Shown in pieces: positions 12,348 through 41,517 of a stretch of 41,517 bases of DNA (positions are counted from its first letter, which is position 1; each line of letters begins with the position of its first letter). The DNA is from a virus. Both the position numbers and the translations under genes were made by a program. Below the pieces are notes generated by a model. It was given only the letters and a program-made list of their open reading frames with translations, was not told the DNA's origin and did not search any database. The DNA is taken from positions 1 through 41,517 of the IMG/VR virus record IMGVR_UViG_3300028873_000040; one strand, written 5' to 3'.

Positions 12348-12521
12348 TTATATGAATAAGTGGGCTAATGCCGGGTTATTGAATTTCGATTCGATCGCCT
12401 CGATACGTTTCTTGAGTGCGGCGATCTTGGATTCGGTACTTTCTTCTGGCGCAACTTCTGGCGCAACTTCCGGCGCAACTTCTGGCGCAACTTCTGGCGC
12501 AACTTCTTCTTGGTTTTCCAT
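12348..12521 (-). CDS. 57-aa protein with five EVAP repeats and a coiled-coil tail
   Basis: The ATG at 12521 overlaps the stop of the upstream gene (TAATG), so translation is probably coupled. After MENQE come five tandem EVAP units encoded by near-identical 12-bp repeats, then a charged amphipathic helix (KIAALKKRIEAIESKF). A stiff Pro-rich spacer joined to a short coiled coil suggests a structural linker or minor neck protein. No family is recognised. The 12-bp DNA repeat could change copy number without breaking the frame. Confidence 0.75.
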   Translation of the reverse strand: MENQEEVAPEVAPEVAPEVAPEVAPEESTESKIAALKKRIEAIESKFNNPALAHLFI

Positions 12522-13819
12522 TATATTTGCGTTATTGTTGTTTTTTCAAATGAGCCTTTTAATTGAGCCAATGATTTTTTAATCCTGTCATACAAACCCG
12601 GTATTTTCGGCTTTCCTTCTTGCCAATTTCCGGGGTCTCCATTGAGTGCCACGTTTAATTTTTCTACCGTCCATGACCCCATTATGCTGCGCTGTATGCT
12701 GTTTGACTGGTAGCTGTTCACGCACATTTCCATAATCTTCGCCGTCATCACCAACCCTATTGGCTCATCAAATAATGATTTGTTTTGGACAATCCTATTT
12801 GAACCATCCTTGAACGTTGACACTTCCATATTCAAACCATACATAAGGTTGTTTGCTCCTACATTATTCCTTGAAAAGTTCCGGTTATTATTAATATCTA
12901 TTGTCATTTGTGAAGCAAAAGACATAATGCTGCATGGGTGGAAGCTGTCGTATTCTCCGGGATAATATATTGCTATGTTGTTTGGGTTGTTTCCTAATTC
13001 GGGATTAACCATGTCTTCTTGGTAATATCCAAAATACCACATGCCCGATTTGTAAGCTTTTGGCACTAAGTTATTTAGTATCAAAGTTTCCCCAAAGTCA
13101 ATAATCGTTTCTTCGCCGGCATTGCATACTATCGGTATCGTCATTATCGGGTTAATGAAAAAATCATTGTATAGATAAAGATTTATAGTTGTGGCGCAGG
13201 TGAATATTGCAATCAAGCTATTAACCTTGATGGCGTGGTCTCCTTTACCTACATACATCCTCATACCCACAAACTGGTTTTGGTTCTGTGCGTTTTGGAA
13301 AGGCAATGACGGTACGTCACCTCTCCAAAAAACTAGTTTAGGTTCGTCAATCAAAGCAGGTTCTGTATATGCACTGCTTATAACCTGCATAACCACCGCC
13401 CTTTGTTTGTTGTCTAAAAATGTTGTCAAAGAACTTCCTTCAAGATTTGCAATTGCGGTTATTATAGTGGTATTGTTGATTTCGTGAAAATCTTCAAAAT
13501 ACTGGTTACTATCGCTTATTGCGCCCTGCGATTGCCATAATACTCTGTTCTGCAATGCGGGGTAAACATAGTTGAAGTTTAAACCGCTTGTTAACCCGTT
13601 TTGGGATTGCACCGTTAAATTAAGTGCCGTATTATTCCCTGATACCGTATAAACCACCTGCGTAAACCCCGGCGCGACTGCCGTAACATTTCCACTTGCA
13701 TCAACTGTGGCAATTGCCCCGTTAGTTGTTGACCATATGCCGCCTGGGGTTGAATCCGTATAAGCGGAAACAGAACCAACGTTTAATATGGCCGCTCCTT
13801 GTATGGGGTTTACTGGCAT
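12521..13819 (-). CDS. Virion protein with N-terminal bacterial Ig-like (Big2) domain, 432 aa
   Basis: The start at 13819 overlaps the preceding stop (TAATG). An upstream in-frame ATG at 13861 lies inside that gene and is less likely. Residues 1-75 look like a Big_2 fold: NVGSVSAYTDSTPGGIWST, IATVDASGNVTAVAPG, then a VVYTVSG strand. The remaining ~350 residues have aromatic, Asn-rich virion-type sequence and no enzyme motif. Ig-like domains on capsid or tail proteins usually project outward and bind surface glycans. The body could be a neck, decoration or minor capsid protein. Which one is not clear. Confidence 0.65.
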   Translation of the reverse strand: MPVNPIQGAAILNVGSVSAYTDSTPGGIWSTTNGAIATVDASGNVTAVAPGFTQVVYTVSGNNTALNLTVQSQNGLTSGLNFNYVYPALQNRVLWQSQGAISDSNQYFEDFHEINNTTIITAIANLEGSSLTTFLDNKQRAVVMQVISSAYTEPALIDEPKLVFWRGDVPSLPFQNAQNQNQFVGMRMYVGKGDHAIKVNSLIAIFTCATTINLYLYNDFFINPIMTIPIVCNAGEETIIDFGETLILNNLVPKAYKSGMWYFGYYQEDMVNPELGNNPNNIAIYYPGEYDSFHPCSIMSFASQMTIDINNNRNFSRNNVGANNLMYGLNMEVSTFKDGSNRIVQNKSLFDEPIGLVMTAKIMEMCVNSYQSNSIQRSIMGSWTVEKLNVALNGDPGNWQEGKPKIPGLYDRIKKSLAQLKGSFEKTTITQI

Positions 13820-14397
13820 TAGTATGCAACGTAAGGTGTTAATGAATACGTAAATGTACAAGTACCCGTAGCCGTCAATTTGATTTGGTGGATAGGATAA
13901 ACATCTGCATCAAGAGGCAAAAACCACTGGTAATGGGTGGTGCCCGACCCGGTAAGCGTTGCTGATGCACCGACGCTTCCGGTTGCGTATGTAGTGTTTC
14001 CCGTAATTGTGTACCACGTTTGCCCGTCGTAGCTGCCTTGTAATATTGCAGTACCCGCCAGCGTACCGGTAAGGGATTTTATTGATAGGTCAAATCCCTT
14101 AGTAACCCGGCTGTTATAACTAAATTGGGCATATCCGATAGTAGAATCGTAGCCGCCGTTTGTTTGCCCAGGGCTTTGCATCGTGTCCGGTCGCGTTGTT
14201 GGGGTAACAACACCTCCTGTAATAACGTAAGTCGTTACGGATTGGCTATACCCAATAGGCAGGTATGAACCCGCCACGGTTACCCCGCCTGTTCCCCGCG
14301 TGGCCGATTTGGTTACGTTCGTGGTATATGCCGGGAAAGTCTGCGCCCGCAAAGATACTCCTGCAAAAATTAATAATATTAAAATTGTGTTTTTCAT
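13819..14397 (-). CDS. Signal-peptide-bearing virion or surface protein next to the capsid gene, 192 aa
   Basis: The N-terminus is a clear Sec-type signal (MKNTILILLIFAGVSLRAQ) with a likely cut after RAQ. The remainder is Thr/Gly/Ser-rich and beta-strand-like (ILQGSYDGQTWYTITG, TYATGSVGASATLTGSG). It lies directly downstream of the major capsid gene, where decoration proteins are common, yet a virion protein should not need export. The tail-fibre gene has the same kind of N-terminus. Either the leader is a structural helix, or the protein acts in the periplasm or on the cell surface. Confidence 0.65.
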   Translation of the reverse strand: MKNTILILLIFAGVSLRAQTFPAYTTNVTKSATRGTGGVTVAGSYLPIGYSQSVTTYVITGGVVTPTTRPDTMQSPGQTNGGYDSTIGYAQFSYNSRVTKGFDLSIKSLTGTLAGTAILQGSYDGQTWYTITGNTTYATGSVGASATLTGSGTTHYQWFLPLDADVYPIHQIKLTATGTCTFTYSLTPYVAY

Positions 14398-14422
14398 TTT
14401 GGTTTTTTAAAATTAATAAGTA

Positions 14423-14485
14423 ATGATTATGGTTTCAGCGCAAATGATTATGGTTTCAGCGCAAATGATTATGGTTTCAGCGCAA
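14423..14485 (-). repeat. Three tandem 21-bp copies of the capsid gene's 3' end
   Basis: The unit atgattatggtttcagcgca+a is repeated three times (14423-14443, 14444-14464, 14465-14485). On the minus strand each unit reads TTT GCG CTG AAA CCA TAA TCA, the last five codons and the stop of the capsid gene plus one codon. Since 21 is divisible by three, the copies remain in frame. Confidence 0.9.
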
Positions 14486-15590
14486 AGAAATAAATGGGGC
14501 TTTCGTTTGTGTTGCTGATATATTGCTGCACATAAGCTATATAATACCCTACCTGAATCTGAACCACGCTATCCTGCGTGTACCCGTGGCCTCCGCTTAA
14601 AGTGGTATCAGCCTGGGTTCTCCATCCGTGTACCATATATTCCATTCCGGGCATCATTTCATCTGCCACAGTGCCATATCCACCTGCATAATCCTCCATG
14701 TTTCCCGATCCATCCATGTAAATACGGGGCATCCATGGTATAAATGCGAATGAGTTTTTTGGTAATGCTATTGCGCCTCCTGCACTGTACCCGCCAACGT
14801 AAGGCACCCCGCCGGGTTGGCCTAAAAGCACATCTTCATATATACCGCCCAACCGTCCGGCTTTATTGCCCATTACTGGGTCTTTAGTGAATTGGTAGGC
14901 AAGGTTTTGCGCGTTCTCAACACCTTGGGCCTGCTGGTATTCGTAAGATGTTGCATGAAGAAGGCTGTCGGCAAATATTTCATACCCTGAATAACCATAC
15001 TTATTGGTGCGCATCGTGGATGTGATGCTTGACCATGGGGTCGTGGCTGCGCTTCCTGATATTTCCCAAGTATTGTATGCCGTATTTAGTGATGCTAATG
15101 GTAAAACGGTATTGCCGTTATATGTCGCACCCGTACGGGCATTGTATGTTTGCTGCAACGTCCATGTATAAATGCGTTCGCGGAGATTGCGCTGGGCTTG
15201 GCTCATTTCATTTTTAAACAATGAGTATTTATCATTGCCCGGAAATAAAGCGGAATCCATTGCTTCTGTCTCATTGATATAGAATTCTTCCGTAAATGCT
15301 ATCCACTGGATTACCTGTTGTGCCGCCGTGCCGCCTATGCCTGTATGGAAGGCTGTCATAGCGGTGCCGTTCGTTGATGGTTTGCGCACTTTAACGTAAG
15401 CATATACCGGCCGGTTAACGCTTTCTTTTATTTTGGTAATATTGCTTACCTGTAAAAAGTTTTGGTTTTGCAACCCGTAGTAAAGCATTTGCTCGGGGAG
15501 TTCGCGTAATTCAGCGGCGTTAAATTCTTCTTCAACTGGCCCCTGAAATGCAAGGAGTGCCGCATCGTAGTAGTTTGATTGCTGTGCCAT
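14469..15590 (-). CDS. Major capsid protein (HK97-fold type), 373 aa
   Basis: The protein follows the scaffold gene and precedes neck and tail genes, and is about the usual length for an unprocessed HK97-like capsid subunit. It has an acidic N-terminal arm (EEEFNAAELRELPEQ), a long helix (NEMSQAQRNLRERIYTW, as in the spine helix) and a late DEMMPGMEYMVHGWRTQAD segment typical of the P-domain/A-domain end of Bacteroidota phage capsids. It has a dedicated promoter with a structured leader. Its last codons and stop are present in three tandem copies. The identification combines order, size and composition. Confidence 0.75.
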   Translation of the reverse strand: MAQQSNYYDAALLAFQGPVEEEFNAAELRELPEQMLYYGLQNQNFLQVSNITKIKESVNRPVYAYVKVRKPSTNGTAMTAFHTGIGGTAAQQVIQWIAFTEEFYINETEAMDSALFPGNDKYSLFKNEMSQAQRNLRERIYTWTLQQTYNARTGATYNGNTVLPLASLNTAYNTWEISGSAATTPWSSITSTMRTNKYGYSGYEIFADSLLHATSYEYQQAQGVENAQNLAYQFTKDPVMGNKAGRLGGIYEDVLLGQPGGVPYVGGYSAGGAIALPKNSFAFIPWMPRIYMDGSGNMEDYAGGYGTVADEMMPGMEYMVHGWRTQADTTLSGGHGYTQDSVVQIQVGYYIAYVQQYISNTNESPIYFFALKP

Positions 15591-15805: not shown

Positions 15806-15852
15806 CGTTTATGCATATTTATTACTGTGGCTATGCTCACACTTCTTAAATG

Positions 15853-15926
15853 TTGCGGGAGTGGGATTTGAACCCACGACCTAAGGATTATGAGTCCCTC
15901 GCGCTAACCAACTGCGCTATCCCGCG
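15853..15926 (-). tRNA. tRNA-Met (anticodon CAT)
   Basis: The cloverleaf is complete: acceptor CGCGGGA/TCCCGCA, D-stem GCGC/GCGC, anticodon stem AGGGA/TCCTT with loop CTCATAA, variable AGGTC, and T-stem GTGGG/CCCAC with loop TTCAAAT. The first pair is C1-A72, a mismatch typical of bacterial initiator tRNA. However, the D-stem has C11-G24 and the anticodon stem lacks the three consecutive G-C pairs of initiators. It could serve as elongator Met, as Ile after lysidine modification, or as a hybrid initiator. CCA is not encoded. It sits between scaffold and capsid genes with its own promoters and terminator. Confidence 0.9.
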
Positions 15927-30031: not shown

Positions 30032-30613
30032 TCATATCTGTATAATTTCCGGCTTTTCAATGAATTTTTTCAACATATCCAATAAGGCGTAGTCGTAGTC
30101 GTTGGCGTAGGCGTGGGTGTTGGCGTAGGCGTAGGCGTAGGCGTTGGCGATGGCGTAGGCGTTGGCGTAGTCGTAGTCGTTGGCGATGGCGATGGCGTAG
30201 GCGTGGGTGTTGGCGTAGGCGTAGGCGTAGTCGTAGTCGTTGGCGTAGGCGTGGGTGTTGGCGTTTCTTTTTTCATTGAATTCACTCAAGCTTATTACAC
30301 CGTTGGTATATTGTTCACATATGCCGATCAATTCTGCAACTTCCTTTTTTTCAAACCATCCATTTTTTTTGCACTCGGATTTGTACTGGAATAAATTCAC
30401 TTTTGCGCAATTCAAATTCAATATTTGTTTTTCTTTTGTTGTCAAATCGCAATTTTTGAATACAAACCAAAACTTATGCTCCACCGGTATTTCAAGATTT
30501 AGTATTTCCTGAATTTCCATGCTTTCAGGAAATTCGTGGCGCCGGTCAACGCAATTTTCAGGCTCAAAATAACATCCAAAATCTACTTCTTCTTTTTTAA
30601 ATTGATGCTTCAT
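30032..30613 (-). CDS. Imm-5-like protein with alanine-repeat C-terminus, 193 aa
   Basis: Residues 1-110 form a small conserved-looking domain (CDLTTKEKQILNLNCAKVN, then WFEKKEVAELIGICEQYTNG). Residues 117-180 are a pure A-x-A-x repeat with Y, N, D, H, T and I between alanines, followed by a short helix. Long Ala/Tyr/Asp repeats after such a start resemble Imm-5-like putative immunity proteins common in phages and bacteria. The repeat is encoded by a hexanucleotide-type minisatellite. It is the last gene of the leftward operon, 39 bases after the 41-aa gene. Confidence 0.6.
   Translation of the reverse strand: MKHQFKKEEVDFGCYFEPENCVDRRHEFPESMEIQEILNLEIPVEHKFWFVFKNCDLTTKEKQILNLNCAKVNLFQYKSECKKNGWFEKKEVAELIGICEQYTNGVISLSEFNEKRNANTHAYANDYDYAYAYANTHAYAIAIANDYDYANAYAIANAYAYAYANTHAYANDYDYALLDMLKKFIEKPEIIQI
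30087..30262 (-). repeat. Minisatellite of 6-bp-type units inside the Imm-5-like gene
   Basis: About 175 bases built almost only from GGCGTA, GGCGTT, GGCGAT and GTAGTC units on the plus strand. A roughly 37-bp block (GTAGTCGTAGTCGTTGGCGT...) recurs at both ends. Any change by whole units keeps the A-x-A-x reading frame. Confidence 0.9.
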
Positions 30614-34127: not shown

Positions 34128-36416
34128 TTAGTAAAGTATTAAGTCATTATCGTTATCGTCAACAGGTTCTTGTATTTGTTCGCTAAATATTAGTTTAGGT
34201 GTTTTTAAATCCATTTCAGCGTCGCGGATATTTTTTATCGACTCATTGAAGTACGAAGTTTTTAGCTCAAAACTAATAGCCTTGCGCCCCATTTTAACCC
34301 ATGTGTAACTTTCTGACCCGATGCCGCCAAACATGCTGAGGCACGTATCGCCATGGTTTGTCCAAAGCATCGTGGCGCGTTCTATTGTTTCCAATTGCAA
34401 TGGGCAAATGTGCTTTTCGTCGTCGTTTTCCCGCGCTTTACGCCCGTTCAGGGTTTTGGTTTGGTTAACATCCATCCATACGGGCGATGCTATTTGCTGC
34501 CATTTTGCAACAGGTATGTAATTCGGCAGTGTCGGGTTGGTGTCTTGGTTTACCACGGGATTTTCATTATTGCCGGGTGCCCGGAAAACTAATAAATAAT
34601 CGGGCATCCCCACTCGGCTCATAGAGCTGTCTTTTTTCACCTGCTTATGCAGCAAACCTAATGCTTTAGTCCGCTGCATTTCGGTTACGGGGTCTTTCCA
34701 TATCGTTACGCGGCAATGGTAAATAAACCCTGCGTCTGTCATTTGTTTAACCAACATGCCCGACCAGTCCCGCAATCCGATAAAGCCTTCTTTGCCCTTC
34801 ATTATAGGCGTATCCATGCAATGTATTGCCACATTTCGCCCTGGTTGCATAACCCTCAATAGCTTGGGCGGGATAAAGGAAAAGAATTTATTAAATTCGT
34901 CATAATCCTTGCAGTTGCCCAAATCTTCGGGTTCGGAGCTGTAAACATACAGCTCAGGGAATGGCGGCGAAAACATAGAGAACCCGATGCTTTTATCAGC
35001 CAGTTGGTCAACGCATTGGATGCAGTCACCCAAATAACCTGTCCAATTTTCCGTTTTCTCAATCCTTATTTCCCGCGCCGGCAAGTGGTCTGTTTTAAAA
35101 ATTTCCGACATTGCTATTTGCATTTCGTGTTGCATTTCTGTGAATTTTCTTTGTTTTTCCCTGAGTGAAACAACAATATTTTCCATTGTGTCGGTACTGA
35201 TAATATAAGCGTTTACGGTTAATTTTTGCCCAAACCGCCATTCCCTGCGGATGGCTTGGTAAAGCCCCTCGAATGAAAAATCAGGGCTTGCAAAAATCAT
35301 ATTCCGGCAATTTTGGTAATTCAACCCCATCCCGGCAATTTTTATTTTCGTTATCAGGATGCGGAAATTACTTTTTGAAAATCCCAAAAGGATTTCTTTT
35401 TTAAATTCGGGTGTGTCCGACCCGGTTACTTCAAAGTATTCTTTTTCATCAATTCCGGATGCCGCAAACATTTTGCGTAATGTTTCCCCTTCCTCATTTT
35501 GCTTAACCCAAATAATAAAAGATTCTTTGCTTTCTTTCACGATATTTACAACTTCGTCCATCCGTTGTATTTTCGTCAACCTCAATTCAGCATTATGAGT
35601 GGTTGCAGAAACGGTGTTATCGTTAAACAATTTGGCATTTTCTTTTTTTGGGGTGATAATTAATTTTTCGATATACTCTAATGGCGGCAAGGCATAACCG
35701 TCATCTGAAAATCCAATATCGGAAGGTTTGCTTAACATTATTGCCCAACTGGATACCCACGCCCAAAAGCGTTTTTTCCCGTGGCCTTTAATCCGCCAAA
35801 CACCCGTATCGCCGCTGTCATGGACAAAGAACATGGCCAGCATTACATTATGCTGCAAAATGCCCAAAAATTCGCTGTGGCTACCTAATTCCGTTGGGTC
35901 GTTAGGTGATGGGGTGGCGGTGCAGCATAATTTATAGGCGGTGTTTTTAAAACCATTTATAAGTTTCTCTTTATAAACCCCGTCAAAAGATTTAATAATG
36001 CTGGATTCATCCAATACGATGCCGGAAAATAAATCAGTTTTTATGTTGTCTATTTGTTCATAGTTAGTTATGTATATACCGGAAATTACAGGGTAATCCG
36101 GGTTATATTCCGTAACATTTATCCCTATTGCCGCCCCCTCTGCAATAGTCTGCCCAATCACGGCTAATGGCGCAAATATTATAACCGGGTTGCCCGTATG
36201 GCGTACTACTTCATTTGCCCACGTTAGTTGTTGGCGGGTTTTGCCTAAACCACAATCCTCGAATAATGCGAAACGGCCGTATTCGAGTGCTTTTTTGACA
36301 CAAAACGATTGAAATGGATACAGCCATGGCCAATTATTTTCGCAAACAAAACCGCACGGGATATGTTTTTTTTCTTTGGCGGCTAAAAGTTGGAGATATT
36401 CTTTGTTATCGCTCAT
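34128..36416 (-). CDS. SNF2-like helicase fused to a DNA amino-methyltransferase, 762 aa
   Basis: Residues 35-440 are an SF2/SNF2-type helicase: motif I CGLGKT (55-60), II LDESS (135-139), III CTATP (165-169), VI QAIRREWRFGQ (387-397). Residues 455-730 are a beta-class N4/N6 methyltransferase. Motif IV SPPF (483-486) comes first, then the KHICPLQLETIER region (669-681) and the AdoMet-binding FGGIGSES (696-703) with an acidic ELK (717-719). Such fusions methylate phage DNA, probably against host restriction. No nuclease domain or specificity subunit was seen, so it is an orphan enzyme and not a restriction system. SPPF as against DPPY suggests cytosine-N4 or a relaxed adenine-N6 type. Confidence 0.85.
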   Translation of the reverse strand: MSDNKEYLQLLAAKEKKHIPCGFVCENNWPWLYPFQSFCVKKALEYGRFALFEDCGLGKTRQQLTWANEVVRHTGNPVIIFAPLAVIGQTIAEGAAIGINVTEYNPDYPVISGIYITNYEQIDNIKTDLFSGIVLDESSIIKSFDGVYKEKLINGFKNTAYKLCCTATPSPNDPTELGSHSEFLGILQHNVMLAMFFVHDSGDTGVWRIKGHGKKRFWAWVSSWAIMLSKPSDIGFSDDGYALPPLEYIEKLIITPKKENAKLFNDNTVSATTHNAELRLTKIQRMDEVVNIVKESKESFIIWVKQNEEGETLRKMFAASGIDEKEYFEVTGSDTPEFKKEILLGFSKSNFRILITKIKIAGMGLNYQNCRNMIFASPDFSFEGLYQAIRREWRFGQKLTVNAYIISTDTMENIVVSLREKQRKFTEMQHEMQIAMSEIFKTDHLPAREIRIEKTENWTGYLGDCIQCVDQLADKSIGFSMFSPPFPELYVYSSEPEDLGNCKDYDEFNKFFSFIPPKLLRVMQPGRNVAIHCMDTPIMKGKEGFIGLRDWSGMLVKQMTDAGFIYHCRVTIWKDPVTEMQRTKALGLLHKQVKKDSSMSRVGMPDYLLVFRAPGNNENPVVNQDTNPTLPNYIPVAKWQQIASPVWMDVNQTKTLNGRKARENDDEKHICPLQLETIERATMLWTNHGDTCLSMFGGIGSESYTWVKMGRKAISFELKTSYFNESIKNIRDAEMDLKTPKLIFSEQIQEPVDDNDNDLILY

Positions 36417-40260: not shown

Positions 40261-41517
40261 TTAGTTATACTCTACAATATAAGACCATTCGTAAACGGAT
40301 GTTGATCCAAGATTTGTTATATCTTGGTAATTAAATCCTGACGCAGTACTTGTGGCAAAAAAACCTACGGTTATTCCAACATTTGCAGCTGCAATGTTAT
40401 TCGGAAATAAAACCACATGCGAATTATTCGGGTAACTTTGGGTGTAAGCCAGATGAAAAATACTGCCCGTAGTTGACACTGCTCCGGTCGTAATCTGTAT
40501 CACCCCGCTCCGATCATCCGATCCCGGCAATAGTACGTATGTTCCACCGGTACCGGCGGCAATCCCTAACGTTATGGTAGGGGGTTGTAGGTCGCCTATA
40601 ATTTCTACTATGCCGGACCGTTGAGGAAATGTGTCTGTCACATCAGAACCGCTGTGCGGGTTTGTTATAAGTATATTATTATGGTTTGAAGTGCCGTCTA
40701 TCAGTTCCAAACCACCGAACGTTGACGGGTAACCAGAACAAAATATACCCCCAATCATGTTACCGGATGAGTTGGCCCAGTTCGCGCCATATCTGTTAAA
40801 ATTCCCGACAACAAAGCCACTGTTAAACATCTGAATTGCGGCTGGTTCATATTCTGTATATATACTCGAAAGATTGCCTACATTTATGGGATTGATTGTT
40901 GTATGCGTTACGAATGAGTTATTGAATGCTGACGCAGTATTTGTTTCGTCAGGCAGATAGTAGTTGCGGTTACCGGTAAGTGGGTTATCTTGTATTGATG
41001 CTGAGTAAGAGCTACTTATGTCCGCTAACTCAATATCTGGTTGGGCAGACCCATTACCTGAACTTGCAGACATCAATAGGCGGCCGCCATCGTCACGGTA
41101 ATCCCAATAATCAGCACCCATGGCACCACTATAACCTGATGAATTTAGCAACTGAAAATAGTTTGTTCCACCCCCTGAATTAGACGCAGTATTACCATTG
41201 TTCAATACATTCTGAAATAAGCAAGTACATCCGCTTGTAATTGCGCTGTAAATAGCATCGTATCCGCTATCTGCTATGTGCATTGCGCTATCGGTTGCGC
41301 CCCCCACTACGAATGGACCTACACTGTTTGGTGCGGTCTGCGTTGTGATGTTTGCGTCCACCGTAGCCCGTTGGCTGTTGACCCATGTATTGAATTGCGC
41401 TGGTGTTGGCGCTTGCGCTGAACTGTCTACACCAGATGCGATAGCTACTACTGTCATGGCAGCTACTGTAATAGATGTGCGGATTCTTTGACCCCATACT
41501 TTTCCCGGTATCAGTTC
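40261..41517 (-). CDS. Tail fibre, C-terminal part (runs off the right edge)
   Basis: The frame is open from the window edge (first codons E-L-I-P-G-K) to the TAA at 40261. An internal ATG at 41457 gives 398 codons but would start inside an open frame. A hydrophobic stretch follows (TVAAMTVVAIASG), then NTWVNSQRATVDANITTQTA and a long beta-rich region. The end domain (GTGGTYVLLPGSDDRSGVIQ to SYIVEYN) is the type found at fibre tips of uncultured phages. It joins in frame to the 1-555 gene if the sequence is circular. A separate gene starting at 41457 is the alternative. Confidence 0.75.
   Translation of the reverse strand, partial: ELIPGKVWGQRIRTSITVAAMTVVAIASGVDSSAQAPTPAQFNTWVNSQRATVDANITTQTAPNSVGPFVVGGATDSAMHIADSGYDAIYSAITSGCTCLFQNVLNNGNTASNSGGGTNYFQLLNSSGYSGAMGADYWDYRDDGGRLLMSASSGNGSAQPDIELADISSSYSASIQDNPLTGNRNYYLPDETNTASAFNNSFVTHTTINPINVGNLSSIYTEYEPAAIQMFNSGFVVGNFNRYGANWANSSGNMIGGIFCSGYPSTFGGLELIDGTSNHNNILITNPHSGSDVTDTFPQRSGIVEIIGDLQPPTITLGIAAGTGGTYVLLPGSDDRSGVIQITTGAVSTTGSIFHLAYTQSYPNNSHVVLFPNNIAAANVGITVGFFATSTASGFNYQDITNLGSTSVYEWSYIVEYN

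Follow-up and report, generated by a model that had tools for sequence, protein, structure and literature searches.

Q-rule signal peptides on a capsid-adjacent protein and the tail fibre of a tailed phage

Two proteins encoded in the virion module of this locus, one beside the major capsid gene and the other the tail fibre, begin with leaders like those of secreted host proteins. The assembly of tailed phages is cytoplasmic, which raises the questions of whether these leaders are genuine, where they would direct the proteins, and how such proteins could become part of a particle.

The window analysed here is an entire virus record of 41,517 bases. Its virion genes are found on the minus strand in the order terminase, probable portal, capsid, a 192 amino acid protein, a Big_2/adaptor-like protein, tail genes and fibre, wherein the terminase gene was assigned by Pfam and the portal gene by its position, as in Pseudanabaena phage Pan5. 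The fibre gene begins at position 555 (minus) with MRYILIILVFLSTPATA|QLQK, and its reading frame leaves at base 1 and resumes in frame at 41517 to give 603 amino acids from that Met. The N-terminal part thus lies at 1-555 and the C-terminal part at 40261-41517 (both minus). The continuity of this frame across the two ends points to a genome that is probably complete and either circular or permuted, though a search for exact terminal repeats of 10-300 bases gave none. The virion module also contains a tRNA-Met gene (15852-15926, minus), placed upstream of the capsid gene. Elsewhere in the record, a protein with a low-complexity AYANTHAYANDYDYAYA repeat stretch is encoded at 30032-30613 (minus), and a 762 amino acid ORF (34128-36416, minus) appears by eye to join a helicase-like N-terminus to a DNA-methylase-like C-terminus.

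Signal peptides of the window proteins

The major capsid protein gene (14469-15590, minus) encodes a protein with 32% identity to the capsid protein of Pan5, and 71 bases separate it from the start of the downstream ORF for the 192 amino acid protein (13819-14397, minus). This protein starts with MKNTILILLIFAGVSLRAQTFPAY..., in which a basic n-region and an uncharged, hydrophobic core are followed by LRA|QT, and the signal peptide corresponds to codons 1-18 (14344-14397, minus). The signal peptide of the fibre comprises codons 1-17 (505-555, minus), with a likely cut at ATA|QL. An earlier note on this DNA had described the leaders as ending in AQ. Both residues are indeed present, and more exactly the capsid-adjacent protein is likely cut between them, with A18 as the last residue of the leader and Q19 as the first residue of the mature protein. 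Three tandem 21-bp copies of the 3' end of the capsid gene, comprising its last codons and stop (14422-14484), precede the signal-peptide gene, and the identical contig L003/L004 has the same three copies.

A leader ending in this manner is an instance of the Bacteroidetes Q-rule. According to the available parts of two reports, signal peptidase I (SPI) of these organisms exposes Gln in most of its substrates, including >60% of those in P. gingivalis, and a glutaminyl cyclase caps the exposed Gln (PMC5837995; PMC10653852). The capsid-adjacent protein likewise combines a Sec signal with a Gln-exposing cut, but it differs from the known substrates in being encoded by a phage, beside the capsid gene, and in being a possible virion protein.

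Signal peptides were called with a heuristic of our own rather than with SignalP, using a threshold of 6 and a bonus of 0.5 for Q at position +1. Removal of this bonus leaves the sites of both window proteins unchanged. There are 37 signals among the 823 called ORFs from 34 sources, and 25 of these belong to the capsid-adjacent family; Q occupies +1 in three of the 12 other ORFs. By the same heuristic, members of the family have an n-region, a hydrophobic h-region and an SPI site, whereas the Cys at +1 that is expected of an SPII lipoprotein is replaced by Gln.

Conservation of the capsid-adjacent family

Searches with the single window protein gave little. There was no match to the 192 amino acid protein in Pfam, NCBIfam or PADLOC, none by tblastn against phages up to an E-value of 1, no significant match in a PDB sequence search, and one weak match (E 0.013) in PHROGs. 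Scans of viral contigs with either this protein or the capsid protein recovered one contig only, which is 100% identical. Relatives were collected through a capsid alignment (A1) of 41 viral loci. The 43 capsid loci discussed below correspond to this set plus L007-L010 and minus L003 (the same as the window) and L020 (the same contig as L007), and some of them are near-duplicates. The A1 profile also matches a solved capsid protein (PDB 9ww9_F, E 1.7e-32), which is a possible template for the head.

A signal-peptide gene is the first gene after the capsid gene in 29 of the 43 loci, including L019, in which the start was set at an internal Met. The adaptor gene directly follows the capsid gene in 12 others, and there the capsid-adjacent gene is absent. 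Of the remaining two, L030 has a post-capsid gene without a signal, and the L014 contig stops at the capsid gene. The signal-peptide gene lies 1-68 nucleotides from the capsid gene (29 loci) and -8 to 19 nucleotides from the next gene (26 loci), which is the spacing of one operon. In the window, the next gene (12521-13819, minus) encodes a Big_2 Ig-like domain followed by a region resembling the 'adaptor' protein of Pan5, and it shares a TAATG stop/start overlap (13817-13821, minus) with the 192 amino acid gene, which likely permits translational coupling.

There are 29 distinct proteins among the 33 entries of the family, which include the window protein and second copies in L032, L034 and L037. 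All 29 carry [AGS]Q within residues 14-24, and the cut site chosen by the heuristic leaves Gln at +1 in 28 of them with the Q bonus and in 24 without it. In an alignment of 25 rows (A4), wherein the other 24 rows are 14-28% identical to the window protein, the only invariant positions are M1 and Q19; a further alignment (A7) falls just short of an invariant Gln column because MAFFT gaps some rows differently. The pN/pS ratio is 0.74 in the signal region and 0.28 in the mature part, as calculated from eight pairs with few sites, which tips the balance neither way. The leaders of the capsid-adjacent proteins and of the fibres are almost certainly real, selected signals, and this degree of confidence is retained after removal of the Q bonus because the Q column of the alignment is independent of the scorer. 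The earlier note was right that both leaders look genuine and resemble those of host proteins, and leaders of this kind are conserved well beyond the window phage.

Could the leaders nevertheless be passive, roleless leftovers from captured genes for host secreted proteins? Host secreted proteins do carry Q-rule leaders, and some of the fibres have enzyme-like domains. However, a leader that is kept at identities to the window protein as low as 14%, with an invariant Q, makes such an origin very hard to credit. Another possibility is that the leaders stay uncut and act as hydrophobic anchors or assembly tags, either in the virion or at the membrane during assembly, much as the earlier note had suggested. 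Such an arrangement might sidestep the topology problem. Yet an anchor needs no SPI site, and no position of the family other than M1 is as well conserved as the Q of the A|Q site; we thus consider retention of the leader improbable.

Relatives of the capsid protein are also present in Flavobacterium and Polaribacter phages. In a Bacteroidetes MAG (L053), the homologue of the capsid-adjacent protein has kept its signal, and its gene is separated from the capsid gene by two genes and located among tail genes. The same 184-kb contig encodes a TonB receptor with CarboxypepD_reg domains, which suggests that the relative is integrated in a Bacteroidota genome. Two phages named for other organisms, L008 (ON968456, Pseudanabaena phage Pan5) and L010 (OP947161, 'Rhodobacteraceae' phage LS06-2018-MD05), have Q-rule signals together with the same capsid module, and their true hosts may be Bacteroidota. 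Q-rule proteins are also encoded at other places in related phages. A small one is encoded on the other strand, immediately ahead of the capsid gene (L007:12846-13235 and L021:9486-9875, both minus), and another (LPVDPATHLITFTG... and similar) is located about 7.5 kb downstream of the capsid gene (L036:18605-19135 and L035:8549-9082) in phages without the capsid-adjacent gene. The latter protein may resemble host DUF4468.

Predicted fold, fibres and virion records

The predicted structure of the window protein has a helix at the signal, followed by a stretch of poor prediction and then a beta-sandwich. The model is weak, with a mean pLDDT of 60 and blocks of residues 101-192 at 61-84. Residues 19-70 (14188-14343, minus) are of low confidence and are in part an insertion missing from most relatives, whereas residues 71-191 (13825-14187, minus; 84-95 of low confidence) are predicted to form a jellyroll. 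A compact relative (L026) gives a better jellyroll model (pLDDT 87, pTM 0.75), which is closest in fold to XepA (Z 11.4, 2.7 A, 104 aligned). Next come a protease domain and a GOLD domain at Z 10.7-10.8, within 1 of XepA, and the cement proteins of KHP40 (Z 9.5, 4.1 A, 111 aligned) and BPP-1 (Z 8.2, 3.1 A, 104 aligned) are found among many other jellyrolls. Jellyrolls are common and Z scores of 8-9.5 are not diagnostic; the predicted fold fits a cement protein without proving it. Like the small jellyroll cement proteins of BPP-1 (3j4u) and KHP30/KHP40 (7dn2, 7dou), the capsid-adjacent protein is modelled as a small beta-sandwich, and it is encoded beside the capsid gene among late genes. We know of no signal peptide on the cement proteins of these three phages. 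The homologue at the same place in Pan5, Pan5_07, has the signal TQA|QA and was named 'cement protein' by its depositors, and the accessible part of the Pan5 paper does not remark on the signal (PMC9837993). The predicted models and the gene position make a jellyroll head decoration (cement) protein the most likely identity of the capsid-adjacent protein.

The likeness to XepA offers a different reading, in which the capsid-adjacent protein would be exported to the envelope and never enter the virion, serving instead as a lysis helper, as a block to superinfection or as a mask for receptors. Its place in the structural operon would then only ensure late, high expression, and the signals on fibres may be a separate matter. 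XepA and YomS of Bacillus prophages are phage-encoded, exported jellyroll sandwiches, as is proposed here, and XepA is absent from mature particles according to the portions of its description available (PMC6834076). In the same vein, five Q-rule proteins of unknown function in the P. gingivalis Nixviridae phages are read by their authors as potentially modifying the outer membrane, and the available parts of that report describe neither a capsid-adjacent family nor virion data for them (PMC10367356). Unlike the present family, XepA and YomS have a Gram-positive host, a two-domain pentameric form and a place in a lysis cassette; they are not in particles. Against a role outside the virion there are the tightly spaced position between the capsid and adaptor genes in 29 loci, the fold matches to cement proteins, the L053 gene, which is relocated but still lies among tail genes, and the lack of a match to the anti-phage defence models of PADLOC for any of three proteins. 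Together with the virion records below, these observations cause us to regard a non-virion role as unlikely, albeit worth serious consideration.

Signals on fibres were surveyed in 11 related records in which 14.5 kb or more could be read downstream of the capsid gene; eight more records had less. Long signal-bearing ORFs, numbering one to three per record and 288-1509 amino acids in length, are present in nine of the 11 and absent from G023 and G015. They start 11.4-16.6 kb downstream of the capsid gene, compared with 13.9 kb for the window fibre. Two of the nine, G017 and G022, represent a single kind, in which the capsid-adjacent gene is missing. The site picked for G018 is ATS|YS, with SYS|Q two residues further. 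G003, which has a signal-bearing ORF of 632 amino acids, was excluded from the count, as the capsid probe lies outside the fetched stretch. The 973 amino acid Pan5_18 is also signal-bearing. Pfam domains were found in four of the ten fibre-position proteins scanned (Peptidase_S74, K1-lyase C-terminal domain, beta-helix and GDSL lipase), and of six such proteins compared with PHROGs, three hit virion or tail-spike families and one hit a polysaccharide deacetylase, with no match for the remaining two.

Evidence for signal-bearing proteins in virions comes from MS/MS notes in the GenBank records of Cellulophaga phages, which are not peptides or N-termini; notes that end at 'part of structural virion' were counted as MS/MS-noted. 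An [AGS]Q signal is present in three of 12 noted proteins examined in phi18:3 (gp85-87), three of 14 in phi19:1 (gp101-103, with a weaker signal lacking Gln in gp104) and four of 12 in phi10:1 (gp91-94). One of these, phi10:1 gp93, matches a PHROG named pectate lyase, whose class is moron and not structural. No signals were found in the MS/MS-noted proteins of phi13:1 (0/11), phi18:1 (0/9) or the crass-like phi14:2 (0/18 examined of 19). The six phages together thus have 10 signal-bearing proteins among 76, always encoded side by side. Without the Q bonus, the best site of the scorer remains the Gln site in seven of the 10, and phi18:3 gp85 falls to 5.8, below the threshold. Although preparations can carry contaminants, these records suggest that tailed virions of two families, Assiduviridae and Pachyviridae, have components with host-type export signals.

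A general rule for Bacteroidota phages is ruled out by phi13:1, phi18:1 and phi14:2, and equally by phi38:1 (none in 21 late-region genes, with one below threshold) and B124-14 (none in 10 genes examined). In phage 11b, one of 10 genes is lipoprotein-like and is not a known virion gene. The crass-like phi14:2 carries a gene annotated as OmpA-domain (KC821624, 283-1278) with an apparent signal peptide and AQ.

The export signals and the virion MS/MS notes could also be reconciled by a dual fate, wherein part of the protein is exported and the remainder is retained in the cytoplasm for assembly in the normal manner. However, the window protein has no near internal Met (the next is residue 73), and the signal scores are high rather than marginal in most members, such that we consider a divided population unlikely.

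Signal peptides have been noted in related contexts. According to the parts of the reports at hand, signal peptides have been predicted for the major capsid proteins of P. gingivalis phages, and their removal is attributed to prohead proteases (PMC10367356); the rumen Bacteroides phages phiBrb01 and phiBrb02 have two and one predicted signal peptides, respectively, which are interpreted there as a sign of cleavage and of contact with the host membrane; the genes of the latter phages are not tied there to virion parts, unlike those described here (PMC5723332). A literature search found no report of the capsid-adjacent family or module, or of Q-rule signals on virion proteins. Three points go beyond the earlier note, namely the recognition of AQ as the Q-rule, the same signals on MS/MS-noted Cellulophaga virion proteins, and the conserved family with a predicted jellyroll fold.

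A possible route through the periplasm

Where would the exported proteins go? Display on the host surface, as raised in the earlier note, is possible but not favoured. Delivery by the type IX secretion system (T9SS) was considered, and none of 19 fibre and capsid-side sequences matches the C-terminal sorting-domain models of NCBIfam at E-values up to 0.1. With no such match and no lipobox at the cleavage site, the periplasm is the default destination. Oxidative folding was set aside as a reason for export, given 0-3 Cys after residue 20 in the 29 capsid-side proteins; seven MS/MS-noted fibres likewise have 0-3 Cys each.

The reading that we favour is that both are surface-exposed virion proteins, made from late structural genes and exported via the host Sec machinery. 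Cleavage at A|Q would follow, and the host glutaminyl cyclase would probably convert the new N-terminal Gln to pyroglutamate. Heads and tails would meanwhile be built in the cytoplasm, and the exported parts would be added as the inner membrane is broken open at lysis, or shortly after release. Such late joining of exported parts is the simplest reading that accommodates the cleavage site, the Gln, the place in the operon and the virion notes together. It would need an unusual joining step, because the assembly of tailed phages is otherwise cytoplasmic. Fibres and decoration proteins of T4, P22 and other phages can be added in vitro to particles that are already complete. The routing of virion proteins by Sec is familiar from filamentous phages, whose coat proteins carry signal peptides, but those particles are extruded through the envelope and the present phages are tailed.

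Virion membership is supported for fibres, and for the capsid-side protein we infer it. In the window phage itself, we infer the presence of both proteins in the virion, their export and cleavage, and the time of joining. The likeness to XepA, the 12 of 43 relatives without the gene and the signal-free Bacteroidota phages argue against the chain of export, trimming and late joining, and we judge the whole chain in this phage to be evenly poised between true and false. More tentatively still, and on balance short of an even chance, several families of tailed Bacteroidota phages may build their virions in two compartments, wherein a cytoplasmic core would be completed at lysis as Sec-exported, trimmed and pyroglutamate-capped decoration proteins and receptor-binding fibres or depolymerase spikes snap on.

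If the outer parts of these virions do pass through the periplasm, then the last step of assembly would take place at lysis, and the host glutaminyl cyclase would be a maturation factor for the phage. Perhaps fibres could in this way be kept from glycan precursors in the cytoplasm, or could mask receptors on debris. For uncultured phages, a Q-rule signal may also give a simple indication of the host phylum, and in Bacteroidota phages it may help to recognise surface proteins without any sequence match.
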